Of a stretch of 33,893 nt of DNA, positions 3,587 to 32,716 are shown one piece after another. Under the pieces are notes generated by a model, which worked only from the letters and a program-made list of their open reading frames with translations, ran no database searches and was not told where the DNA came from. This stretch comes from a virus. Location: IMG/VR virus record IMGVR_UViG_3300015360_000121, positions 1-33,893 of that record, one strand, 5' to 3'. The position numbers and the translations under genes are program-made. The stretch's first letter is position 1. Every line of letters starts with the position of its first letter.

Positions 3587-3703
3587 CTACGAGAGATGCG
3601 CGGTGCCGCCCTGGATCTGGTTCAAAGCCTTTTCCACGAGGAGGTTGAGAAACTTTGTGGAAAACCATTTCAAAGAAACGCTTCCCGAGTGTTCAAGTAC
3701 CAA
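3587..3703 (-). CDS. Possible small ORF overlapping the methyltransferase end
   Basis: In the -1 frame relative to the methyltransferase, a reading frame runs past its stop and ends at TAG 3587. The last part reads like real protein (KFLNLLVEKALNQIQ) with the GC-rich codon style of the methyltransferase. If started at TTG 3703 it is 38 residues long. It could be a tiny gene, the alternative C-terminus of the methyltransferase reached by a -1 shift, or the remnant of a gene that came with it. The start site is poorly supported, since the SD-like GGAAG abuts the TTG. Confidence 0.22.
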   Translation of the reverse strand: MVLEHSGSVSLKWFSTKFLNLLVEKALNQIQGGTAHLS

Positions 3704-5790
3704 CTTCCGTCGACTTCGTGAAAGTGCTCTTTGCAGATTTCTTTGATGTCTTTTAGCCCAATTCGTTGCAGGCTTTTCCCGCTTGTAATCATTTGCCGAA
3801 CAATCATTGAGTGCAAGAAAGGGGTCGTTCTGTGTTCATTCGTGTAGACATTGGGCTCGCGCTCTATCTTCTTGGGGAGATCGCGCAAGTATGTCTGCAT
3901 GAGGCGCACCAGTTCCGATTGAGTTGTCTGGGCAGGTTTTGGCGCCGACTTCAGAGGGCGCGCATTCTTTTGAGTAGTGGGCTTTCTCAGGTTGAATACA
4001 AAGTCGCAGTTTGTAACATCTTGAGATCCTGAACGACCCATGTAGCCTTTGACGCTCTTTTGTTCTTTGTCCAGAAAGCACGTTTCTTCGATCGAGAATC
4101 CAGCGGCCGCCGCAGCGTTCCGAAATGTCTGCAAAACGTCATCATCAGAATTATTGAAAACGATTGATGCCCACCGACCAGGCTTGAGAACGCGGTACAT
4201 TTCCGCGAAGGAGGAATAAACCAAGGTGCGATACTCGTCCCGAGTTTTTCCGCCATGCTCGGGTTTCCGAATTCTGTTGAAATGAATCTCGTGCTTTTCG
4301 TTGGTGAAGCTATCTAGCCATCCCTCCCAGATTACGGAGCAGTCGGAATAGTACAAATTCCCACCAAACGGGGGATCGGTGAAAATATAATCCACCGAAG
4401 CGTTGGGAACAGATGTGAGTTCAGTAGCCGAGGAGTTAGTGAGTGCAACTTGTGCCTGAGTCTTATTGAACTCGAGAGCATAGTAACGACACAAATCGTC
4501 GATCTTGTTTCTAAGCACCTCAAATACATTGCATTCCGCAGAAAGTTGAGGAATGTAGAGCGTGCCGGTAAGAGGGCGCATGCCGCCTTTGATGTTGTAT
4601 CTTCGCATCCTCGTTGCGTGCCAAAAGGTGTTCGTACAGGCAAAGGATAGGCATTGACGCAACCTGAGATCGGGAATTGATTGAACTGCATCCCAGATCT
4701 CGGCGCAGGTACGGAGATTTCTTGGTGTATAGAAGTCAGAAACCTTCTTTATGCCGAGTTTGGCTGGTCCCATAGTCATCATTTCCCTTTGCGGGGCGAT
4801 CGACTGCTTCGGATACCATTTGGTTAGGCGGCGGGTTGCGATCTCTTCTAGAAGATCTAGGTCGAATCGGAGCGGGCTGCGAGTATGACGTCGTACCTTG
4901 CCAGTAGTTCCATTTGTGACTTCGTAGCAAACTTGAACTGGAAGTGAGTAGGGCGTTGCGCGAATGGATCTGCGAGTATATTCGGTGCGGCATTCAGGAC
5001 ACTTGAAGGACTTCGAAACGGTTCCCGAATCCTTTGATTTTTCGTTCCAAAGTACAATCTCCTCCCCGCACTTGCGTCCTGAAGTCTCTCTCGGGCATCG
5101 ATATGCCTCTGACCAAAGAGTGTAGATAATGCGTGCTTTTAGGAGCTCGACGGTGTGCCCTTGGGATGTGCACGAAATCTGGCCGGAGTGTTTTCCGCGC
5201 AGAATTAGACCGGCCTTCTGGATTTGGTTATTTGAAATGTGTTGCGCATATTTTTCGTTGGAAACTGGGTGCCAGGTCGTAAAGAGATCGTCTTCAACGC
5301 GAGACAGGCTTTTCATCAGAGAATCAAAGGTTTTGCGTAACGCTGTTGGTGACACGGAATGCGTGTGATTGTAGGCGATATGACAGGCAGCTGGACCGAG
5401 ATCGTTTAGAATTACGTTGAGTTTCGCGTTGGCAGTGTTGGAGAACATTCGCGCCGCGACCCCAGTCATTCCACTACCGCAAAATGGATCGAGGACTGTG
5501 TCGCCAGGCCGTGTGTAGTGCTGAAGATATGGGATGATTCCTTCAGGTGGAACCTTTGTATGATACGAGTGAGCGTTGTAGACGGCGCTGTTCTTGTCGA
5601 CGCGAATGTTCTTATCAAACGAATCAATTGAACGATTGGGTGCGTCAGAGTTGACGAGGCTCTTTACGTCGTCAGATGACGAAAGATATTTTTTGAAGGG
5701 AAAAGACCCACAATTTTGTCGCTTCGATTTCGCTTGGCTCACGTCTACCGATTCTGCGGACAATCTCTTCCCTACGGCGCTAAGGTTCAA
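3670..5790 (-). CDS. DNA methyltransferase with internal zinc ribbon (probably N6-adenine)
   Basis: The protein transfers a methyl group from S-adenosylmethionine to DNA. Motif I (DPFCGSG, 101-107) binds the cofactor, and catalytic motif IV is DPPF (472-475). Between them is a long insert with a zinc-ribbon-like set of Cys (232, 241, 264, 267), giving the order I, recognition region, IV of the alpha-class arrangement. DPPF favours N6-adenine, though N4-cytosine is not excluded. The frame opens at TTG 5790, overlapping the fibre gene by 11 bases; a later TTG at 5763 has AGGGAAGAGA just before it and may be the true start. No restriction enzyme gene is adjacent, so it is probably an orphan anti-restriction or epigenetic enzyme. 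The gene is visibly GC-richer than its neighbours, with many spurious open frames, suggesting recent acquisition. Confidence 0.87.
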   Translation of the reverse strand: MNLSAVGKRLSAESVDVSQAKSKRQNCGSFPFKKYLSSSDDVKSLVNSDAPNRSIDSFDKNIRVDKNSAVYNAHSYHTKVPPEGIIPYLQHYTRPGDTVLDPFCGSGMTGVAARMFSNTANAKLNVILNDLGPAACHIAYNHTHSVSPTALRKTFDSLMKSLSRVEDDLFTTWHPVSNEKYAQHISNNQIQKAGLILRGKHSGQISCTSQGHTVELLKARIIYTLWSEAYRCPRETSGRKCGEEIVLWNEKSKDSGTVSKSFKCPECRTEYTRRSIRATPYSLPVQVCYEVTNGTTGKVRRHTRSPLRFDLDLLEEIATRRLTKWYPKQSIAPQREMMTMGPAKLGIKKVSDFYTPRNLRTCAEIWDAVQSIPDLRLRQCLSFACTNTFWHATRMRRYNIKGGMRPLTGTLYIPQLSAECNVFEVLRNKIDDLCRYYALEFNKTQAQVALTNSSATELTSVPNASVDYIFTDPPFGGNLYYSDCSVIWEGWLDSFTNEKHEIHFNRIRKPEHGGKTRDEYRTLVYSSFAEMYRVLKPGRWASIVFNNSDDDVLQTFRNAAAAAGFSIEETCFLDKEQKSVKGYMGRSGSQDVTNCDFVFNLRKPTTQKNARPLKSAPKPAQTTQSELVRLMQTYLRDLPKKIEREPNVYTNEHRTTPFLHSMIVRQMITSGKSLQRIGLKDIKEICKEHFHEVDGSWYLNTREAFL

Positions 5791-22042: not shown

Positions 22043-23005
22043 CTAGGCTGTAGCGTTCGAGAAGAAAACTCCAAGATCGGCTGCAACCAATTTTTGATCC
22101 CATGCCATCTGACCTTCAACGCGGTCAGATTCCAAGTGTTCCATACGGAATGATTTCATTCTCATGCCAGAACCTTGAGAACCCATCAGACCGGCCCATA
22201 CAAAAGTATAGCCAGCAGAGGGTTTTAGTAAACCAGGACTTGATTCGCTATAAACTAACAAGGCATCGTTTCCGTACAGACTAGAGTAAGATGCAGTTGC
22301 ACCTTCTACAGCGGTATTTTCGGAAACTTCAGCAACTAGGTATTCATCTACACCAAAGAGCATTGCAAGAATTTCCTCAGTCGCAACTCCACGTTGGGTG
22401 TACTTGATTCTATCTAGGATAGACGCATTACTTCTTAAAGCTGAATGCACCGCTGGGCCAACAACAAGCTTATTAGGCTTCTTGCCAGTTTTCTTGCGCA
22501 TTGCATCTTTTTGAAGATCAATATCGGATACTGGATCAGAACCGGCAGCATCCCACAGAGTACTTGGGGTAATGTCACCGCCAGAAGAGGATCCGGTCCA
22601 GATTGAAGTGGCGAAAAATGCAGAAGCCCACTCTTTCTCTTTTTTCAAGAGGAGTTGTTGCATCAACCATTCGGCTGCATCTTTGTCCAAGTTCAGGGGA
22701 TCGTCTTGATTGGCGCGAACTTGATCATCAATATTTTTATGAAGGGCAAAAACATCAGCACTATATGAATCAGTGTCGATGTTAAACCCGCTACCTGCTG
22801 ACTCAGTACCGGGGGCACGTTTCTTCGCCTCCGAACGGAACCAATCATCACGCGTATAGCGGAAATACAGATCCGATTGTTTTTGAACAGGAACCGAAGG
22901 AAAGACTTTGCTTGCGATAAAATCCTGCGCGTTCTGCATGAAAGCTAGAGAAATGTTAGTTAACGGTCGGTTAACATGAACATCACTTCTTGATGGTTGC
23001 GGCAT
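22043..23005 (-). CDS. Major capsid protein
   Basis: This 320-residue protein fits the HK97-fold capsid family of Mu/Pam3-like phages. Characteristic segments are an N-terminal arm (SRSDVHVNRPLTNISLAF, 5-22), IASKVFPSVPVQKQSDLYFR (31-50), the helical region NLDKDAAEWLMQQLLLKKEK, then KKPNKLVVGPAVHSALRSN and a C-terminal EHLESDRVEGQMAWDQKLVA. There is no long N-terminal scaffold, consistent with a separate scaffold gene. It is followed by a terminator, typical of an abundant structural protein. Confidence 0.88.
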   Translation of the reverse strand: MPQPSRSDVHVNRPLTNISLAFMQNAQDFIASKVFPSVPVQKQSDLYFRYTRDDWFRSEAKKRAPGTESAGSGFNIDTDSYSADVFALHKNIDDQVRANQDDPLNLDKDAAEWLMQQLLLKKEKEWASAFFATSIWTGSSSGGDITPSTLWDAAGSDPVSDIDLQKDAMRKKTGKKPNKLVVGPAVHSALRSNASILDRIKYTQRGVATEEILAMLFGVDEYLVAEVSENTAVEGATASYSSLYGNDALLVYSESSPGLLKPSAGYTFVWAGLMGSQGSGMRMKSFRMEHLESDRVEGQMAWDQKLVAADLGVFFSNATA

Positions 23006-23024: not shown

Positions 23025-23393
23025 TTATGCGTTACGGCCTTGTTTATCGATAAGTACAGTTACAAGCTCACCGGCATTGCTTACTGCGTCCAACGTCCAA
23101 CCCAAGATATGATCCCCAGAAGCAGCTGCGACTACCTGACCGTTAGTGTCAGAAGCAACTAGCAAACCTTTGGTTAAAGAAGTTCCGGCACTTGCCTTAG
23201 AAATTCCTGTGACCATAACTTCACAAATATCACCACTTGCAGCTGTTGCTTGAAGAACTCCTAAGCATTCTTCTCCGTCACCACAAAGATTGATACCCGT
23301 TGAAGTCATTTCTACGAGGTAATATTTTTTAGCGGAAAGATCGCCAGCCGCCACTTCATTCCCAAAAACTTGACCTTTAATTTCGTAAGCCAT
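23025..23393 (-). CDS. Capsid decoration protein (DUF2190-like)
   Basis: The 122-residue beta protein reads as DUF2190: EIKGQVFGNEVAAGDLSAKK, then LCGDGEECLGVLQATAASGD (36-55), VMVTGISKASAGTSLTKG and HILGWTLDAVSNAGELVTVL. Family members stabilise the capsid surface. It lies between scaffold and capsid genes, the usual place. Confidence 0.82.
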   Translation of the reverse strand: MAYEIKGQVFGNEVAAGDLSAKKYYLVEMTSTGINLCGDGEECLGVLQATAASGDICEVMVTGISKASAGTSLTKGLLVASDTNGQVVAAASGDHILGWTLDAVSNAGELVTVLIDKQGRNA

Positions 23394-23942
23394 TTAGATA
23401 CTCCCATCTTTAAGATATTTTGCGTAAAGCTTGGGGTTTCTCTGCCATGCTAAAGACTCAGCAACGGTTGGAGAAACTTTTTCGCTTATTTCAATTTCTT
23501 TTGCAATCTTAGTAATCTGTTCTTCTAAATTTTGGCTTCCAGCTTGGCTAGAACCAACTTCAGAAAAAAGACCACTTTTTTCTACCGCTTTATTGGCGGC
23601 AGAAAGAACTTGTTCTAGTGTTGCATAAACTTCGGCTGGGCAATTTTCGCTTACTGCTTTAAGTGCCAAACCTAATTTTTCTTTCTCAACACCGAGATTA
23701 GAAACCAGACTTTCTGCTTTAGAAACAAATTCTTTGGTTTTTCTCTCTTCGCGTTCTTTCTGCAATGCTTCCATTGCTTCTTTAAAACGCTTGTCACTAG
23801 ATTCCAATGCTTTTTCCAGTGTCTCAACTTTGCCCTTCAACTCCTTAGATACTTCTTCCGCTTTAACGGCTGAAGGATCTGGCTTGGGAGCAGGAGTTTC
23901 ATGGGCATTGTCTGCGACTTCATCTTCTTTCTTCACAGTCAT
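23394..23942 (-). CDS. Nested in-frame scaffold, short form
   Basis: An in-frame ATG at 23942 (Met112 of the long form) is preceded by GGGGAG, with six bases between GGAG and the ATG, a very good Shine-Dalgarno site inside a coding gene. Translation from it would give a 182-residue protein consisting of the Pro-rich linker, coiled coil and C-terminal helix, i.e. a standalone scaffold like lambda Nu3 within C. The codons for Gly-Glu-Lys-Ser supply the SD, so it could also be chance. Confidence 0.5.
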   Translation of the reverse strand: MTVKKEDEVADNAHETPAPKPDPSAVKAEEVSKELKGKVETLEKALESSDKRFKEAMEALQKEREERKTKEFVSKAESLVSNLGVEKEKLGLALKAVSENCPAEVYATLEQVLSAANKAVEKSGLFSEVGSSQAGSQNLEEQITKIAKEIEISEKVSPTVAESLAWQRNPKLYAKYLKDGSI

Positions 23943-24275
23943 ACTTTTCTCCCCAATTCCTGTTAATGTAAAAATCTTTGAGAGAATTTCTTCTCTACTA
24001 TCTTCTGGCAATTCCGCTGATGCGGAATTAATAAGCCTAATAGCACCTAGTAAATATTCACTTGCAGATTTTGGTAATTTTGATTTTTCTAGTAGTTCAA
24101 GTATTTTTGATTCGTCACCTAAAGATTTTGAAAGACTCAAAATAAGTTCTTTAGAAATATTTAAAACCATATCTTCCCCATCTTCGGATTTGATAAGCAT
24201 AAAAGTTTTTTTGTTGGCACCCCTGGGAACTAAGCTTACTTCAACAACAGTTAAATCTTTAAGTTGCTTGGCCAA
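23394..24275 (-). CDS. Prohead core/scaffold protein, long form
   Basis: The long form (293 residues) starts with MAKQLKDLTVVEVSLVPRGA, then NKKTFMLIKS, the start typical of phage protease-associated core proteins. The remainder is highly charged: helices around 40-105, a Pro-rich linker (124-135), a long coiled coil (about 140-190) and a C-terminal helix. It overlaps the protease gene by 17 bases. A second translation start appears to lie inside it (see 23394-23942). The protein should fill the prohead and be degraded by the upstream-encoded protease. Confidence 0.82.
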   Translation of the reverse strand: MAKQLKDLTVVEVSLVPRGANKKTFMLIKSEDGEDMVLNISKELILSLSKSLGDESKILELLEKSKLPKSASEYLLGAIRLINSASAELPEDSREEILSKIFTLTGIGEKSMTVKKEDEVADNAHETPAPKPDPSAVKAEEVSKELKGKVETLEKALESSDKRFKEAMEALQKEREERKTKEFVSKAESLVSNLGVEKEKLGLALKAVSENCPAEVYATLEQVLSAANKAVEKSGLFSEVGSSQAGSQNLEEQITKIAKEIEISEKVSPTVAESLAWQRNPKLYAKYLKDGSI

Positions 24276-25233
24276 GATCTTCCCTTATCCCAAAACCGCC
24301 AATTGAAAAAGAATTTATGCCGCCAGCCTTGACTTCTTCCCAAAGCTTATCGTCATTTATTTTTACTGATATTATCCATGAACCTTTTAGAATCTTAGCA
24401 CCGTTGAAATCAAAGTCAATCGGAGCTATGTGACTCTCGACGATATTTGCCGGGGCTTCTACGAGATGTTTTAAGCCCACGACTCTCGAGTCCTTCAAGA
24501 ATCGGTGGGCAGCACCTTCAATCTCGCTCCCTGAGATTATATCTCCCTGCGCGTCAATGGTATCTGGCTCAAGAACAACCCCAGTTACAATTTGTTGTTC
24601 TATATCGGTTTTTATTATTCTATTTAAATCAATTTTATTATTCTTATTTAATTGTACACTATTTTCATTTGTCCGGGGGATACCCGAATCTTTTATTTCT
24701 TTTTCTGCCTTTATTACCGCGTCCAAAACCAACCAATTAGGGTTTTTACCTCCGGTGTAGAGATAATTAGACCCCTTAAAGGAAATACCCCGAGAATCTT
24801 GAAAGTGTTCAGAGATCGAATTTGTGAAGTATTCTAAATCAGCTTGGGTTGATGCAGTAAAGGTCGGGACAAGGGCAAACAATTCGGATCCAGAAAGCCA
24901 AGAATCGTAAAAATTATTAACAATGGGATACCTATCTTTATAGGGTTTTTTAGTTAAATCCCCCTCAAGATAAGGAACGTCATCCACCCAAAAAACTCCG
25001 TCAATTAATTTACCATCTAGCACAAACTCGTCGGGAATAGCTGAAAGTCTTCTGACAAAGGGGTTTTCGGAATTTTCATCTTTTAATTCCTGGGAGGAAA
25101 AATCGGCAATCATCCGGGTGCCAGAATAGACCGGGCTTATAAATACTGGAAGGCGTGGTTCGCACCACCTCCACAGAGTTGCAAGATTGTCATTTATAAG
25201 AGATGTCGGTGTTGGGGTCGCGCTAATCGGCAT
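24259..25233 (-). CDS. Prohead protease (XkdF-like) fused to a ligase-like nucleotidyltransferase domain
   Basis: The C-terminal half (about 210-324) is XkdF-like: TGVVLEPDTIDAQGDIISGS, then VGLKHLVEAPANIVESHIAP (252-271, candidate His256) and GGINSFSIGGFG (304-315, candidate Ser310). It should cleave scaffold and capsid arm. The N-terminal half (about 22-172) resembles ATP-dependent DNA ligase: a degraded motif I region (EPRLPVFISPVYSGTRM, where a Lys-x-Asp-Gly should be), motif III-like EFVLDGKLIDG (69-79) and a motif IV/V-like segment RGISFKGSNYLYTGGK, then NWLVLD (148-171). The catalytic Lys of motif I is missing, so it is probably a nucleic-acid-binding or structural remnant. The two halves are joined by a polar Asn/Lys-rich linker (181-205). 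Confidence 0.78.
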   Translation of the reverse strand: MPISATPTPTSLINDNLATLWRWCEPRLPVFISPVYSGTRMIADFSSQELKDENSENPFVRRLSAIPDEFVLDGKLIDGVFWVDDVPYLEGDLTKKPYKDRYPIVNNFYDSWLSGSELFALVPTFTASTQADLEYFTNSISEHFQDSRGISFKGSNYLYTGGKNPNWLVLDAVIKAEKEIKDSGIPRTNENSVQLNKNNKIDLNRIIKTDIEQQIVTGVVLEPDTIDAQGDIISGSEIEGAAHRFLKDSRVVGLKHLVEAPANIVESHIAPIDFDFNGAKILKGSWIISVKINDDKLWEEVKAGGINSFSIGGFGIREDLGQAT

Positions 25234-25529
25234 TATTTCACCCCGGTAATCGTCACACCCTCACCATTGGTGGTAGAGTCAATATACACCTTATACAAAT
25301 CAATCGAAGATTTATCCGAACTCCAGAGTTCTATAACCCCACTAGCTGCTAGGGGTTCTGCAATGGTAGACGCAACATCTGCCCCACCGATAAAGACGGG
25401 ATTGGTATTAGCCGCTAAAGCTTTAATTTTACAATACTGAACTTTAAACTCTGCTGCCTTGAGACGTTCTCTAGTCCCAGCCGCAGTTACAGTTTTCTTA
25501 AAGGAGAAACCCCCTAAACTTACCGCCAT
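25233..25529 (-). CDS. Small beta-structured virion-like protein
   Basis: The 98-residue protein has the pattern of small phage beta proteins: FKVQYCKIKALAANTNPVFI, then GGADVAS, PLAASGVIELW and DLYKVYIDSTTNGEGVTITG (77-96). Such proteins occur in many metagenomic phages near the head or fibre genes. It may decorate the head or serve as a fibre base. It overlaps the protease start by one base. Confidence 0.68.
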   Translation of the reverse strand: MAVSLGGFSFKKTVTAAGTRERLKAAEFKVQYCKIKALAANTNPVFIGGADVASTIAEPLAASGVIELWSSDKSSIDLYKVYIDSTTNGEGVTITGVK

Positions 25530-26013: not shown

Positions 26014-27060
26014 TCACCCCCCAATTATGAGATTTACCGCACATAAACAGTTTGGGTGTAGCGGCGGGTAAGGTGCAGACCCCAATCCCGACTGGAAATC
26101 TTCATTTAGTGGGATTCTAATCCCTGAAAGTGGTTCACAAAATCCGCACAATTTATCGTGCGGTGTAACCACCCATTCTTTTAGTGACAGAGTCTTATCA
26201 AACAATCCGGCCTCGCTCGCTTGATCCCAAAGTTCTGTTTGTCCCTTGGAGGCAATGAAAGCTGTCTCGGTATTAGCTATTGTCTCGGCTCGTTGTGATA
26301 ACAACCTATCCGAATACGCGCCCACAAGGGCGTCAACATCTTTTGGTTTTCTAGCTATAAACTGGGTTTGTGCTGGGCTTAAAGCAACGAAATTTTTAGA
26401 TTCTAAATTTCTTCTGAAATTAAATACTGCATTGGCTTGTCTCTCGTTTAGACCGATGACATTTTTTATTTCTGAAACTAAATTTCTTCTTGGTGTGGGT
26501 TCTAAAAATGAGCGGCTAAGATAGGTAGATATGGCTGCTTTAGACTCATTGGTAATCCCAAAAGAAATGCCAAGGATTCTTTGGTTGATAAAACTATTTA
26601 TCTTAGAAGAATCCGGCTTAAAAGAAAACTCACCACTATTAGTGCTAGGGCTAGGAACATTGATACCTCCTATTTGAACTTCTTCTTTGGGTCCGGCTCT
26701 TCTTAGAAGTAAATAGGAGCCGACGGCTGCTGCCAATACTTTTGCGAAGGTTTTAGCTTGAAAATTTCCGCTAAATTCAATTCCATCCCTTAGTATATCA
26801 TCTAAGTCTTCCAAGTCATTAGTAAGCCCCAGGAAATTTATACTGTCTATTGCCTGGGGGGTATTAAGGGCTATCAATGACTCTTTTAACTGACTCTCAT
26901 TAGTTGATTCTCTGAGAGATTTTATAGCCTTTACAATCTTTGGCTTTATTTTAGGCTTATATCTTTTAACTACTTCAGTAATAGTCTTATACTGGGAAGA
27001 CTCTGGAAACCCCAAGGTCGTTTCAGATTCTTTAGCTTTAAATATGCTATTTCTTATCAC
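26014..27060 (-). CDS. Head morphogenesis protein (Mu F / SPP1 gp7-like)
   Basis: The C-terminal part carries the Mu F-like pattern: LSQRAETIANTETAFIASKG, then LKEWVVTPHDKLCGFCEPLS and PYPPLHPNCLCAVNL, a Cys/His-rich end often found in these minor capsid proteins. The open frame extends back to 27153, but the extra 31 residues overlap portal codons and look unnatural. The GTG at 27060 overlaps the portal stop by 14 bases and is preferred, giving 348 residues. The protein is a minor head component that follows the portal in Mu-like phages. Confidence 0.83.
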   Translation of the reverse strand: MIRNSIFKAKESETTLGFPESSQYKTITEVVKRYKPKIKPKIVKAIKSLRESTNESQLKESLIALNTPQAIDSINFLGLTNDLEDLDDILRDGIEFSGNFQAKTFAKVLAAAVGSYLLLRRAGPKEEVQIGGINVPSPSTNSGEFSFKPDSSKINSFINQRILGISFGITNESKAAISTYLSRSFLEPTPRRNLVSEIKNVIGLNERQANAVFNFRRNLESKNFVALSPAQTQFIARKPKDVDALVGAYSDRLLSQRAETIANTETAFIASKGQTELWDQASEAGLFDKTLSLKEWVVTPHDKLCGFCEPLSGIRIPLNEDFQSGLGSAPYPPLHPNCLCAVNLIIGG

Positions 27061-28378
27061 CAGAACTATTCCCGCCACCCATGTGCGCAAGCATTGCCGA
27101 AATATCCTCCGGGGCTTTAGGAAGATCAGCCAATTCTCTAATTTTATTTTCAAGATTTGGATCCGGGAATAAAGGCATCCCCGCGCCCGCGAGGTTAGAA
27201 ATTAACTCTCCTAAATCTTTAGGATCTGGAGATTCAATATCTCCATGCTTAAGATTAGGGGTAAATTCGGTATTAAACCCATTTAATTCAAGGAGTCTTG
27301 GTATCGCATAGGTGTTAAAAACTTCTCCGATATGCCCAAGCCATGTACCGAGCGCAGAGGCGAAAAGGTTTGTCTTGGAACTTGAGAGAGAAAATGATCC
27401 GTGAGTTTCGTGACCAAGTAAAATAAAATCGGCTAAGACAACCATGGATAGACGCTGGTCATATCTTCCTATAATTGCATTTGTGTCAAAGGCTCTTTTG
27501 CCAGAGGAAGACAGAAGCTTAAAGTCGTAAAGAAGTTTTCCAGATTCGTCGTAGGCTAGGGGGAAAATCAAACCAGCTTGCTCGTCTACTCTAACATTTT
27601 TTACGATCTGCTCAAGTTTAGCTCTAATCTCTTTTTCTTTTGGGGAAGCATCAGAAGATAAAATTTGTGGTGGTACAAGGGCAATGGGGAGACCGGCTAA
27701 ATCTCTTTCGATACCAATCGCTTCAATATTTTCAATGTGTTTTTTTAGAGTATGGGGCCTGACGGCATTTCGTAAAACGCTCCTTCCCTCGGGAGAATTT
27801 TTCTTATTCGTAGTCCTAAATAAAAGGGATTTCTCAATGGGAATATAGCGAGTATCAAATACCGGAGGGGGTCTTTGAACCATGCCCTTAAGCCCACCCT
27901 CATCGTCAAAGTCCCAACGCCACAGAGTCTCCTGGGCACGTCCGGGAAGTTTTCTCCAACCAATCTTTCCATCCTTAAACTTTGAACGCTTAGATGAACT
28001 TTTTTGATCTCGGCCTAATCTTTTCTTATAAACAATCTCGTGATAGCTCCAGCCGAAAACTAACATACTCATAATTTCTGAAATTACATCTGACCAGGTT
28101 GATGACATATCCTCAAAACAGCTTTCTATAAATTCCACTTGTTCGTTTTGATCTTTGCCCTTTTCATTGGCATTAACCTTCCAAGGAACTCGGCGCATGA
28201 GCATATCAACAACGAAAAGTATGGCACCAATAACTGGATCATTATCGGCCATTTCGCGAAGAACCTTTCTCCCGCGCTCGCCTTGGAGCTCTTTCAGGAA
28301 CTCCTCATTTATTTCTCCAGACATATGGTTTAGCCCAGATGATCCAAGCTCTCTAAGGTCTGAAAGTTCTTTTGCCAT
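27047..28378 (-). CDS. Portal protein (Mu gp29/DUF935-like)
   Basis: The 443-residue protein is a portal of the Mu type: DNDPVIGAILFVVDMLMRRV (45-64), MSMLVFGWSYHEIVYKKRLG (103-122), and KLPGRAQETLWRWDFDDEGG followed by YIPIEKSLLFRTTN. It forms the dodecameric ring at the packaging vertex. The ATG at 28378 has TAGGAG about ten bases upstream, close to the TerL stop at 28392. It is followed by the overlapping head morphogenesis gene. Confidence 0.88.
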   Translation of the reverse strand: MAKELSDLRELGSSGLNHMSGEINEEFLKELQGERGRKVLREMADNDPVIGAILFVVDMLMRRVPWKVNANEKGKDQNEQVEFIESCFEDMSSTWSDVISEIMSMLVFGWSYHEIVYKKRLGRDQKSSSKRSKFKDGKIGWRKLPGRAQETLWRWDFDDEGGLKGMVQRPPPVFDTRYIPIEKSLLFRTTNKKNSPEGRSVLRNAVRPHTLKKHIENIEAIGIERDLAGLPIALVPPQILSSDASPKEKEIRAKLEQIVKNVRVDEQAGLIFPLAYDESGKLLYDFKLLSSSGKRAFDTNAIIGRYDQRLSMVVLADFILLGHETHGSFSLSSSKTNLFASALGTWLGHIGEVFNTYAIPRLLELNGFNTEFTPNLKHGDIESPDPKDLGELISNLAGAGMPLFPDPNLENKIRELADLPKAPEDISAMLAHMGGGNSSGDKK

Positions 28379-28391
28379 TTTCGAGTAACTC

Positions 28392-30851
28392 CTACGATAA
28401 ACTATAGGCCACTGATTTTTTAGTGAAAGAAGTAAAATCTATATTAGCAATATCCCTCTTGCCTAGTCTACACAAGGCTTGAACCATTGCATCGGTTTGA
28501 TCTTTATATTTAGAATTGGGGAAAGTTGCAATCTCTTCAATGAACGCACCTAGCCACGGCTTTGAGCCGATAGCTGGGAAGTAAACATTTCTACCCTCAA
28601 ATTCCGGCTGTACTGATAATGCTCTATCCTCCTTGGATCTAGTCGCTTTAATGCCGATAAGCCCGGAGATTTTATCTTTAAGAGCCGATAGCACTGCTTC
28701 GCCATTGGCGGCTTTCTCAACTAACTTCGCTTTAGCTTCGGGATAAGTTGCGGAAAAAAGTTGAATTGCTTCAACGGTTTCAACAAAGTCCATTTGCTTT
28801 CTAACTTGGTCAATCAAATACTTGTTGGCACCTTTTCTCCCCCAAATCTGACCGACAGTATATGCAGAAGACGCATTACCCGTAAACGCTAAGTCCCACG
28901 ACTGGATATATTCATCCATATCCATTGGGAGTTCGTCGTAGTGTCTATACCAAGCCCGCTTGAATATTCCCCCTTCGAGTGGCGAAGGTCTTTGTTGGTA
29001 GAGGGAATTCCAATAATATTCTCCAACTTCTTTCTTTATCTTTTTAAGTGCTCTCTCGTCATATCTCTCGGGGCAAAGTGCTTTGCCTGGCATTCTTCCA
29101 AGGGGGTCATGTTTTTCAGCAATGGCTGGAAGGCGGATAACTTTCCAAGTCCCTTTTTGGTCGAGGTCAGACTGTAACCAACCCTGTAAGTCGTTTTCAT
29201 TCCATCTAGTACCCAGGATTATCAGGGCCGCACCTGGCTCACCGCGAGTTGCGAAAGTAGATTTAAACCATTCAATATTTCTTCTCTGGTACGCTGGTGA
29301 TGCAGCTTGTTCAGAATTCTTTACAATGTCGTCGATGATGAGGCAATTGTGGACAAGTATTCCGTCAGCAAAGAAGTTGTGGTTTCCTTCCACTTGGATG
29401 TCATAGACAAATTCCTCTCTTTCGCTAATTGGCCCAACTGAGGAAATGGTGTCGATTTGGATTTGTGGTGCGTCATGTGACAAGGCTGGCATAGAGTTAT
29501 CAGATTGTCTGGGTGATTGTTGCCCGGAGTCTCGTCTATATGATGCACTATTAAGTCGTGAGAAATTTGGCAAATCGAACAACTTTGAAAGTCTCTTTGT
29601 AGAATAAGATTCCGTACTTTTATCAAGAAAGCCGCCGGACTCCGACTTTTTGAATTCCGTGAGTTCCCCACACCCGTCATACGGGTGGAGTGTGCTTGAT
29701 TGGAGCAGTCCCGACCACAATAAGTTGTTCTGGAACTTTTGGGGTGAAAAGACGTTCTGCATTGCGGACACCGCTTTGTTTTTTTGACTTTCGTAGAATT
29801 TTTGCAGGTTTTTGAACAGTATTTTAAAGACTTTCTCGGCACCGGATTTTCGCAGATTAAGCATTTCTTTCGATTCTTGAAAGAATGGTGTTTTTGAGAG
29901 CATTTTAAAGAACAATAGAATGCCGTATGCCCCCTTCGGTATGCTTTCTCCACATCGTAAGATTTTTTTGTAAATATTTTTTCGCATAGATGACATGTTA
30001 CTTCCAAATCTACTTTTCTCATTTCGGAATAACATTGCCGACAAACCCTTCCGCGACTGTTTTTTGATTTCTGGCAATTTGCACAGATTTTGTTTTTCCG
30101 GCTGCGGGAGGGTAATAATCCTGTCTCCTCGCCGTAGATCTTTCGTCTCTTTGTACCCCGATCCCAATACGAAGACTCTGTGATCATAAGTGCATTTAAG
30201 TCTTTTTCCAGATTCTGATTTAATTTCGTAGAATTGTTTAAAGGGAAGTTTTTGGGTTGCTTCAATTGATTTATACTCAGCCCTATTTTCCAAATGATTA
30301 TATGACAGGATGTTACAATCTATATTCTTGTTTACTATGTCCCCTATGGTTTGCAAGCCTTTATTAGTTTGAATTAAAGTTTTTTCCCCGAGACAATGCG
30401 CCCCTCGGCCAGTTATTGGTCCTCCGGCACCAGCAGTCGTCATGCCCCCGCCCTGAACTGTTTCCCATCTTGACGATGCAGTCGCTTCTTTATTTATCTC
30501 GATACCAAGCCTCGGATTTTCAATTGCCATGTCTCTAACACGTCTGCCCCACAGCGCAGCAAACTCCGCCTCATAAGAAGCTAGGATTATTTTTTTATTG
30601 GGGAAAAGAGATAAGAACCACAGGGGCGACCAAAACGAAATTAACTCGGATTTTCCGGCTCTCGGGGGCATTTCAATAATCAACCTTCCACCGTTAAATA
30701 TTGCTTCAGTAATCTCTCTTCCGATAAGTTTTAGGTAGTCGTAGCGTTTCCATTTCCCTTCTGAGAATTTAGCCGCGAAAAGATCCGGGCGCAAACGCCA
30801 CGATTCATTGAACTCATTGACAGAAATCTTTTCTTTAGGCTCAGACAACAT
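28392..30851 (-). CDS. Terminase large subunit interrupted by an intein
   Basis: The precursor is about 820 residues (numbered from an upstream TTG; the ATG is residue 2). The N-extein has Walker A PPRAGKS (63-69) and ends GPITGRGAH (153). The C-extein resumes with CLIIDDIVKN, whose LIIDD is Walker B (505-509), then the coupling motif LGTRW and a nuclease domain starting at SWDLAF (Asp654). After loss of 350 intein residues it is a 469-470 residue TerL, normal length. It cuts concatemers and pumps DNA into the prohead. Starts TTG/ATG/TTG occur in tandem here; GGAG lies three bases before the ATG and six before the following TTG, so the exact start is uncertain. It overlaps the small upstream gene by 14 bases or less. 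Confidence 0.93.
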   Translation of the reverse strand: MLSEPKEKISVNEFNESWRLRPDLFAAKFSEGKWKRYDYLKLIGREITEAIFNGGRLIIEMPPRAGKSELISFWSPLWFLSLFPNKKIILASYEAEFAALWGRRVRDMAIENPRLGIEINKEATASSRWETVQGGGMTTAGAGGPITGRGAHCLGEKTLIQTNKGLQTIGDIVNKNIDCNILSYNHLENRAEYKSIEATQKLPFKQFYEIKSESGKRLKCTYDHRVFVLGSGYKETKDLRRGDRIITLPQPEKQNLCKLPEIKKQSRKGLSAMLFRNEKSRFGSNMSSMRKNIYKKILRCGESIPKGAYGILLFFKMLSKTPFFQESKEMLNLRKSGAEKVFKILFKNLQKFYESQKNKAVSAMQNVFSPQKFQNNLLWSGLLQSSTLHPYDGCGELTEFKKSESGGFLDKSTESYSTKRLSKLFDLPNFSRLNSASYRRDSGQQSPRQSDNSMPALSHDAPQIQIDTISSVGPISEREEFVYDIQVEGNHNFFADGILVHNCLIIDDIVKNSEQAASPAYQRRNIEWFKSTFATRGEPGAALIILGTRWNENDLQGWLQSDLDQKGTWKVIRLPAIAEKHDPLGRMPGKALCPERYDERALKKIKKEVGEYYWNSLYQQRPSPLEGGIFKRAWYRHYDELPMDMDEYIQSWDLAFTGNASSAYTVGQIWGRKGANKYLIDQVRKQMDFVETVEAIQLFSATYPEAKAKLVEKAANGEAVLSALKDKISGLIGIKATRSKEDRALSVQPEFEGRNVYFPAIGSKPWLGAFIEEIATFPNSKYKDQTDAMVQALCRLGKRDIANIDFTSFTKKSVAYSLS
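29321..30187 (-). CDS. Zinc-finger HNH homing endonuclease nested in the intein, +1 frame
   Basis: This 288-residue protein (from ATG 30187; the frame opens 26 codons earlier at TTG 30265) is read one base downstream of the terminase frame. It has four Cys pairs-of-pairs: 35/38-49/52, 65/68-92/96, 109/112-124/128 and 140/143-157/161. An HNH domain follows: Cys203/206, HH 215-216, Asn228, Cys233/236 and His240. Very basic and Cys-rich, it looks like a DNA-binding site-specific nickase or nuclease. The nuclease would spread the intein DNA by homing. The frame starts within intein block B and runs 25 bases past the intein end into the terminase extein. No strong SD precedes the ATG, so translation could be low or by another mechanism. 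The tail of about 45 residues overlapping block F/G may be merely run-on. Confidence 0.82.
   Translation of the reverse strand: MITESSYWDRGTKRRKIYGEETGLLPSRSRKNKICANCQKSKNSRGRVCRQCYSEMRKVDLEVTCHLCEKIFTKKSYDVEKAYRRGHTAFYCSLKCSQKHHSFKNRKKCLICENPVPRKSLKYCSKTCKNSTKVKKTKRCPQCRTSFHPKSSRTTYCGRDCSNQAHSTRMTGVGNSRNSKSRSPAAFLIKVRNLILQRDFQSCSICQISHDLIVHHIDETPGNNHPDNLITLCQPCHMTHHKSKSTPFPQLGQLAKERNLSMTSKWKETTTSLLTEYLSTIASSSTTL
29346..30395 (-). mobile_element. Intein in terminase whose endonuclease is in another frame
   Basis: Residues 154-503 of the precursor (350 residues) form the intein. Block A is CLGEKTLIQTNKGLQTIGDI starting at Cys154. Block B is CTYDHRVFVL (His225). Block F is FVYDIQVEGNHNFFADGIL, and the intein ends HN followed by Cys504. 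The intein splits the terminase just before Walker B. The stretch between the splicing halves (about 257-462) shows no LAGLIDADG or HNH motif in this frame and is Ser/Lys/Leu-rich. The same DNA in the +1 frame encodes a zinc-finger HNH protein, so this frame probably acts as a disordered linker kept free of stops. Confidence 0.93.
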
Positions 30852-31047
30852 CAACTCCGCTATCTTCCATGGTGTTTCTCAGGAATTTTAAAAGTTTACC
30901 AGCCCTGCCGAGCATAATCATCTGCATTGGTTCCGAACCGCCAAGAAGCGGGTTACCTGTAGAAAACCAGATTCTAGTTTTCTCTTGGTCTTTAAAATAA
31001 TTTCTCACTAGAATATAGCACTCTTCAATTTGCTGCTCTTGCGTCAT
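30841..31047 (-). CDS. Small protein with MbcA/ParS/Xre toxin-binding-like domain
   Basis: The 68-residue protein reads like the C-terminal domain of MbcA/ParS/Xre antitoxins: RIWFSTGNPLLGGSEPMQMI (25-44), then MLGRAGKLLKFLRNTMED. The family pattern is N-P-x-L-G-G-x-x-P-x-x-x-x-x-x-G-x-x. There is no HTH domain and no toxin gene next to it. It lies between TerS (23-base overlap) and TerL (overlap up to 14 bases), so it is translationally linked to packaging. Possible roles are a packaging cofactor or an anti-toxin decoy. Confidence 0.72.
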   Translation of the reverse strand: MTQEQQIEECYILVRNYFKDQEKTRIWFSTGNPLLGGSEPMQMIMLGRAGKLLKFLRNTMEDSGVDVV

Positions 31048-31902: not shown

Positions 31903-32523
31903 TCATGCTTCGCCAGCATAGCCGCAAGAGGGACAGGGAATTAATTTTTTTTTCTTAACTTTTTTCTCGGTCTCTTCTGGCGGACTTACCGTCCCGTCTA
32001 ATTTAGCCATGTCAAAATCAAAAGCTAGATCGTCAAGTTCAATCTTGTCAAACGCTAGGGAATTTAGATCAAATCCATCTAACTCCAAAGCATTTACCAA
32101 TGAAGCTAACGTCCTCACGTCCCATTTAGAATTCTTCGCCGTCTGGTTATCGGCAATAGAAAACGCGGCGGCGGTGGTATTATCTTCCTCATGGACAATC
32201 ACAGCAACCCTATCCCAACCCAACTCTTTCATAGCTAACAACCTCCCCTCGCCTGCGCGTAGGAGAAGGCCACTCGTAGTTTTTTGAGCGGATAGTGGAA
32301 GTCTTTGGCCAAACTTTTTAAGCATGGCTTTTTTAGACTCTATGTCTTCTTTCGGGTGGGTATTCGGGTTTCCTGGGTCTAAAGAAAGTTCGGAAATATT
32401 GATGACAAAAGGCCATAATTGCGGTAAGATATAAGGAGGTCCATCCGCAGTAACGGCTAATGGCAAATCAACTATTTTCTTCTTAGATTTTTTCCATCTC
32501 TTTGTATATTCGTCATCCGGCAT
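31903..32523 (-). CDS. ParB/Srx-like nuclease-domain protein with C-terminal zinc ribbon
   Basis: The ParB/Srx-like core includes SELSLDPGNPNTHPKEDIES (counted from an upstream TTG as about 52-71), then LLRAGEGRLLAMKELGWDRV and SIADNQTAKNSKWD. These patterns are typical of phage ParB-like proteins located next to terminase genes, which may nick or bind DNA or use NTP. The C-terminus is IPCPSCGYAGEA, a half zinc ribbon. The frame can start at TTG 32547, but the ATG at 32523 overlaps the RHH stop in the common ATG/TGA way, and I prefer it (206 residues). Confidence 0.8.
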   Translation of the reverse strand: MPDDEYTKRWKKSKKKIVDLPLAVTADGPPYILPQLWPFVINISELSLDPGNPNTHPKEDIESKKAMLKKFGQRLPLSAQKTTSGLLLRAGEGRLLAMKELGWDRVAVIVHEEDNTTAAAFSIADNQTAKNSKWDVRTLASLVNALELDGFDLNSLAFDKIELDDLAFDFDMAKLDGTVSPPEETEKKVKKKKLIPCPSCGYAGEA

Positions 32524-32716
32524 TGGGAAACTTCTTTGCCAACTCAACTTTAAACTTATGGCGTAGGATATTTCTAATAATTAAACTGACCGGCTTTTCT
32601 TCTTTCAGTGATGCTTCTTTTAAAACATCAGCCAGGGGTTTCTCAAGACAGAAAGCGCAACGCTCAGTAACCACGACATCCGACAATTTTGGCCTCCCCC
32701 TACTTTTTTTACCCAC
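32513..32716 (-). CDS. Ribbon-helix-helix-like DNA-binding protein
   Basis: This 67-residue protein begins with GTG and the basic segment GKKSRGRPKLSD, then a beta strand (CAFCLEKPLADVLKEASLKE) and a helix VSLIIRNILRHKF, the pattern of Arc/MetJ or CopG-like repressors. It may be an operon autoregulator. AAGGA lies about ten bases upstream. It overlaps the ParB-like ATG by 11 bases. Confidence 0.68.
   Translation of the reverse strand: MGKKSRGRPKLSDVVVTERCAFCLEKPLADVLKEASLKEEKPVSLIIRNILRHKFKVELAKKFPNAG

Follow-up and report, generated by a model that had tools for sequence, protein, structure and literature searches.

A degenerate DNA ligase domain fused to an XkdF-type head protease in an uncultivated virus, and its multi-enzyme relatives

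The fusion gene and its surroundings

The window analysed here is the whole of IMG/VR virus record IMGVR_UViG_3300015360_000121, a stretch of 33,893 nucleotides that contains a block of head genes on its minus strand. Read in the coding direction, the block runs from a portal protein (27047..28378) through a MuF-type head morphogenesis protein (26014..27153), the fusion gene (24259..25233), a scaffold-like protein directly downstream (23394..24275) and a decoration/scaffold-type small head protein (23025..23393) to the major capsid protein (22043..23005). A 98-aa protein encoded just upstream of the fusion gene (25233-25529, minus strand) has no counterpart in Pfam, in PHROGs or among the relatives retrieved.

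The fusion gene lies exactly where the initial annotation had placed it. Its ATG overlaps the stop of the preceding gene (TAATG), giving a coupled start, and its frame is open across all 324 codons. Open reading frame and Pfam match together define a protein of 324 aa in which a degenerate ligase domain is followed by an XkdF head protease. The ligase-like nucleotidyltransferase domain occupies residues 1-175 (24709..25233, minus strand), and the codon usage of this N-terminal part is normal, resembling that of the neighbouring genes. The domain is followed by a short linker of 28 residues (176-203; 24625..24708, minus strand), which leads directly into XkdF (residues 204-315; 24289..24624, minus strand).

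Several other genes on the minus strand of the window carry features of their own. The large terminase gene (28392-30854) is split by an intein-like insert, matched by PF14890 above cut-off at residues 164-503. In the transglycosylase (SLT) gene (286-1965), a LAGLIDADG domain is accompanied by weak matches for intein splicing, so that a second intein is probable. A 706-aa open reading frame (3670-5790) is matched by a DNA methylase profile (N6_N4_Mtase) in two stretches, possibly because of another intein or insert. A ParB-like protein (31903-32547) and a serine recombinase (Resolvase, PF00239; 33114-33713) are encoded upstream of the terminase genes.

A degenerate ligase in front of a conserved protease

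The C-terminal half of the protein is an XkdF-type head maturation protease, as had been proposed for it, and scores 99.3 bits against PF14550 (cut-off 24). His256, Glu266 and Ser310, presumed to be catalytic by analogy with prohead proteases in general, are all retained. Across 62 aligned XkdF domains, the corresponding residues are conserved at 98%, 98% and 100%, respectively; distant XkdF domains diverged too much for their alignment to be used in scanning. The window protein shares with XkdF (PF14550, Peptidase_S78_2; PHROG 3017) the C-terminal domain, the His/Glu/Ser set and the site between portal/MuF and scaffold/capsid genes. Ordinary XkdF proteins, unlike the window protein, have no enzyme domain in front. 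Judged by its residues, the window protease should still process the head.

Residues 1-175 on their own have no match in Pfam, PHROGs or the phage collection. Since direct library searches came back empty, the domain was tested through its relatives. BLASTP aligns the window protein with the ligase of one relative, L008, at E=6e-9; the Smith-Waterman score of the same pair is 104, compared with 33±5 for 1000 shuffles. Against a profile built from six related ligases with the window sequence left out, the window domain scores 35.4 bits (E=7e-10), while the best of 2000 shuffled window sequences reaches 6.2 bits.

Structural comparison leads to the same family. AlphaFold2 folded the domain from a seven-row alignment with pLDDT 74 and pTM 0.70, although two of the five models were poor. 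This alignment includes ligases, so the fold is not an independent line of evidence, whereas the profile and BLAST tests are independent of the model. In an alignment that mixed ligase and XkdF fragments, the latter half of the ligase was wrongly placed, and this alignment was kept out of folding. Searched against the PDB, the model finds DNA ligases best (Foldseek E 4e-5); VIA-align superimposes it on them with Z up to 11.4 over 140-146 residues, and the closest folds are the ASFV ligase, human LIG1 and LIG4, and archaeal ligases. A mismatch in the fold of residues 1-175 would have refuted the initial annotation; the top structural matches are all ATP-dependent DNA ligases. The idea that the domain is unrelated to ligases and that its motifs are chance look-alikes starts from the empty searches with residues 1-175 alone. 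It is refuted by the profile, BLAST and shuffle results, with which the fold and the shared fusion partner agree, and is left with next to no probability. Residues 1-175 are a degenerate ATP-dependent DNA ligase nucleotidyltransferase domain.

Degeneration extends to every catalytic motif. When aligned with the ligases, the motif stretches quoted in the initial annotation fall on motifs I, III, IV and V, and the motif I Lys that it reported missing is indeed replaced, by Val35; four further catalytic positions are also lost, so that the decay goes deeper than first described. At motif I (ISPVYSGTR; 25114..25140, minus strand), Arg40 is kept beside Val35, the position where 48 of 49 related domains have the nucleophilic Lys. 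The motif III acid, Asp or Glu in 46/49 relatives, has become Lys75 (EFVLDGKLI; 25003..25029, minus strand). Motif IV (SRGISFKG; 24772..24795, minus strand) has Arg148 in place of the Glu found in 48/49 and keeps Lys153. Motif V (NWLVLDA; 24718..24738, minus strand) has lost both Lys residues, to Val169 and Asp171; the first of them is present in 45/49 relatives.

The scaffold of the fold has fared better than the five catalytic positions. Among the conserved non-catalytic positions, 43 of the 67 that can be compared are kept by similarity, and 14 more fall within deletions, of which the domain has two internal ones relative to intact ligases. No OB profile matches any open reading frame of the window, including the region that follows the nucleotidyltransferase domain. 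Compared with an ATP-dependent DNA ligase (PF01068), the window domain thus shares the fold and the positions of motifs I, III, IV and V, but has all key catalytic residues replaced, is shortened and lacks the OB domain. Profile, BLASTP, fold and motif evidence agree on a dead ligase domain fused to a head protease, as the initial annotation had held. Nucleotidyl transfer is not expected of this domain on the basis of its residues, and the protease is the sole part expected to work.

Multi-enzyme relatives anchored on XkdF

Relatives of the fusion were found by scanning IMG/VR with XkdF, the LigD-type 3'-phosphoesterase (PE) and ligase parts, together with custom profiles. They include 36 distinct single open reading frames of 766-1846 aa in which ligase, PE and XkdF follow one another in constant order; 27 of these also carry a uracil-DNA glycosylase (UDG) and 19 a class I methyltransferase. 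In the fullest relatives, the order is nucleotidyltransferase-like domain, methyltransferase (or a Dam-like or metallo-beta-lactamase-like domain), ligase, OB, UDG, PE and XkdF. DNA_ligase_A_M, UDG, methyltransferases, the metallo-beta-lactamase fold, the D12 methylase and XkdF are all matched by Pfam above cut-off. The first domain has no Pfam match and is read as nucleotidyltransferase-like from its GS..DID motif. The PE domain scores 15-18 bits against Pfam LigD_N, below the cut-off of 31. Its model (pLDDT 95) has as its seven best PDB matches LigD-type PE domains only, with nothing else at E<0.001, and the presumed active site (His56, Asp58, Arg60) is invariant in 27 sequences. Modeling thus confirms a LigD-type phosphoesterase fold.

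Homologous fusions that retain the motif I Lys had been named as something to look for, and the 48 of 49 related domains with this residue supply them. These ligases are intact-looking, yet motif III is Asp rather than Glu in most of them, which speaks against assuming activity from sequence. Another relative, L068, has decayed separately, with the motif I Lys changed to Arg and the motif IV Glu to Thr, and several relatives have no ligase domain. The open reading frame of L010 (L010:2-2107) carries an anti-CBASS Acb1 (PF23474, 115 bits) in front, along with OB, LigD-type PE and XkdF. In the related viruses L103-L106, a UDG-like domain directly precedes XkdF and its first motif is degraded (FLSLMPT versus F[IV]GASPG), a possible parallel to the dead ligase of the window.

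Variants of other kinds were also observed. In L061, an opposite-strand open reading frame resembling an HNH homing endonuclease (L061:4136-5056) interrupts the polyvalent frame inside the OB domain; an Rfam search found no intron at this interruption. L011:1222-3351 is one open reading frame with rubrerythrin-like domains, UDG and XkdF. The PHROG family phrog_14859, annotated as 'RNA ligase' and 373 positions long, has an XkdF-like C-terminal stretch, and other XkdF fusions may therefore already exist among reference phages. Two candidates from such phages were rejected. The 'DNA methyltransferase/prohead protease' of Rhizobium phage RHph_Y1_11 has 212 aa, too short for both domains, and is read as XkdF only, while the 'Prohead protease' of Roseobacter phage DSS3P8 matches the Acb1 part of L010 but is a stand-alone protein of 150 aa.

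Gene order ties the window to these viruses. Relatives with sequenced flanks have portal and MuF before the polyvalent frame and scaffold, decoration and capsid after it, as in the window, with the scaffold-like protein in the same place. Their portals are 37-56% identical to the window portal, and 50-56% in the closest group, which covers the portals beside many polyvalent relatives. The start of the window protein coincides with the start of the ligase domain in the relatives, and the window linker lies where they carry the OB, UDG and PE domains. XkdF and portal trees place the window beside ligase-bearing relatives without firm support, so loss of domains, as opposed to late fusion, is a reading based on the order of the domains and the decay of the motifs. 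No other open reading frame of the 33.9-kb record matches the passenger profiles; the record is possibly a fragment, and a ligase may be encoded elsewhere in that virus.

The relatives point to an origin that the initial annotation had overlooked, in which the domain was once cargo in a protease-anchored protein of several enzymes. At a probability of about 0.68, the window encodes a pared-down and catalytically dead version of this family, whose enzymes would be passengers carried into the head by the XkdF protease.

The present state of the dead domain invites two other accounts. The initial annotation proposed that the fold is reused as a scaffold, DNA-binding or portal-docking module in head assembly; in such a structural job, a pseudo-enzyme would set the place of the protease in the procapsid through contacts with scaffold, portal or DNA. 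A retained fold core from which all catalytic residues are gone, an intact frame and ordinary codon usage are consistent with such a job, as is the degraded UDG-like passenger of L103-L106, where the fold likewise seems able to outlive the chemistry. However, many XkdF proteases, including those of L012-L019 and psiM2, work without a ligase-like domain in front. Searches with the window's own protein, its portal and its capsid turned up no close relative, which leaves no conserved binding surface that could be tested. As a full explanation, the structural job is doubtful. The alternative of a functionless relic, in which the N-terminal part is eroding late toward a plain XkdF protease, would account for the two internal deletions and the loss of every other passenger, and the independent decay of L068 and the relatives entirely devoid of ligase fit with it. 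Against it, 324 codons remain open with normal usage, and fold positions are better kept than catalytic ones; simple decay is therefore also rather unlikely.

Proposed passengers of a head protease

XkdF and ATP-dependent ligases are each well known. From head maturation in general, XkdF is expected to lie inside the procapsid, and anything fused to it to go in as well. Internal head proteins of known phages leave the head with the DNA. The architecture described here can be compared with several established systems. Polyvalent proteins of phages and conjugative elements were described in 2017 (Iyer et al., 2017; PMC5512222). Like the relatives, they have several unrelated enzyme domains per chain, are encoded by phage late genes and are predicted to be delivered with DNA. 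The multi-domain character is clear in the relatives, whereas the window protein pairs a protease with a single dead enzyme domain. XkdF is absent from the main text of that paper, whose abstract assigns the likely processing to zincin-like metallopeptidases (Iyer et al., 2017; PMC5512222). The present family differs in that the head protease is a fixed C-terminal anchor and the cargo consists of DNA repair and modification enzymes.

Another example is LigD, the bacterial and archaeal NHEJ ligase with a 3'-phosphoesterase. The relatives likewise pair an ATP-dependent ligase with a LigD-type PE, but show no polymerase domain and have XkdF and UDG in the chain, while the window protein retains only the dead ligase. 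In 50,697 phage records, the sole carrier of the PE domain is ANMV-1 virus, which comes from an uncultured archaeon. Its 866-aa protein AJP62006.1 combines, as the relatives do, nucleotidyltransferase-like, ligase, OB and PE domains near head genes; in contrast to the relatives and the window protein it lacks XkdF, and unlike the window domain it keeps the ligase Lys. A comparable use of a structural protein is found in phage P23-45, where a virion RNA polymerase is fused to the tape-measure protein for entry into the virion (PMC10770324). There, the carrier is a tail protein and the cargo an RNA polymerase, whereas here a head protein carries DNA repair functions. No description of the XkdF-anchored enzyme architecture was found in the open-access literature, and other journals may hold some. 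As far as the open-access literature shows, this architecture is new, while XkdF, ATP-dependent ligases and polyvalent proteins are already known.

The proposed mechanism begins with the protease part of the family being built into the procapsid together with scaffold, which would take the fused enzymes inside as its passengers. At maturation, the protease would cut itself and the scaffold, and the enzymes would stay in the head. Once freed, they would accompany the DNA into the cell, there to repair or modify its ends. A ligase, a 3'-end healer, a uracil remover and a methyltransferase would fit a role in repairing or protecting incoming DNA, and Acb1 fits defence on entry. In the window virus, the passengers would have shrunk to a single ligase domain whose fold core outlasted its chemistry; this leftover would be at most a passive passenger or a module for assembly or binding. 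We infer packaging, self-cleavage, injection and any present role of the dead domain, whereas the homology, the loss of catalytic residues, the architecture of the family, its gene order and the retained protease residues are directly observed.

A different role for the relatives is that they act late in the infected cell, for example on replicating DNA, with the protease fusion serving co-expression only. That packaging in the virion is a prediction leaves room for this account, as does the ANMV-1 protein with its nucleotidyltransferase-like, ligase, OB and PE domains free of XkdF. However, XkdF is strictly C-terminal and the gene sits among head genes, the Acb1 anti-CBASS cargo of L010 would be most useful on entry, and the ANMV-1 gene, from a reading of its neighbours, is also in a head-gene block. 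A purely late role is accordingly considered improbable.

Carriage into the head by the protease, the favored reading, extends to a wider proposal that is put forward tentatively and at somewhat less than even odds. A widespread, undescribed class of viruses may pack a set of enzymes for repairing and modifying DNA ends (ligase, LigD-type 3'-phosphoesterase, uracil-DNA glycosylase, methyltransferases and sometimes Acb1) as a passenger of the head protease, free it by self-cleavage and inject it, with the dead ligase of the window as a pseudo-enzyme in a binding or assembly role. What began as a single-gene curiosity becomes an architecture conserved in dozens of uncultivated viruses, and the passenger enzymes of the family form a natural gradation, with intact ones at one end and decayed ones at the other. 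XkdF families that bear names such as 'DNA methyltransferase' or 'RNA ligase' may owe them to annotation carried over from fused proteins. The architecture suggests a simple way to load a phage head, by fusing enzymes to a protease that must be inside anyway, and the proposed mechanism predicts DNA repair delivered by the virion.
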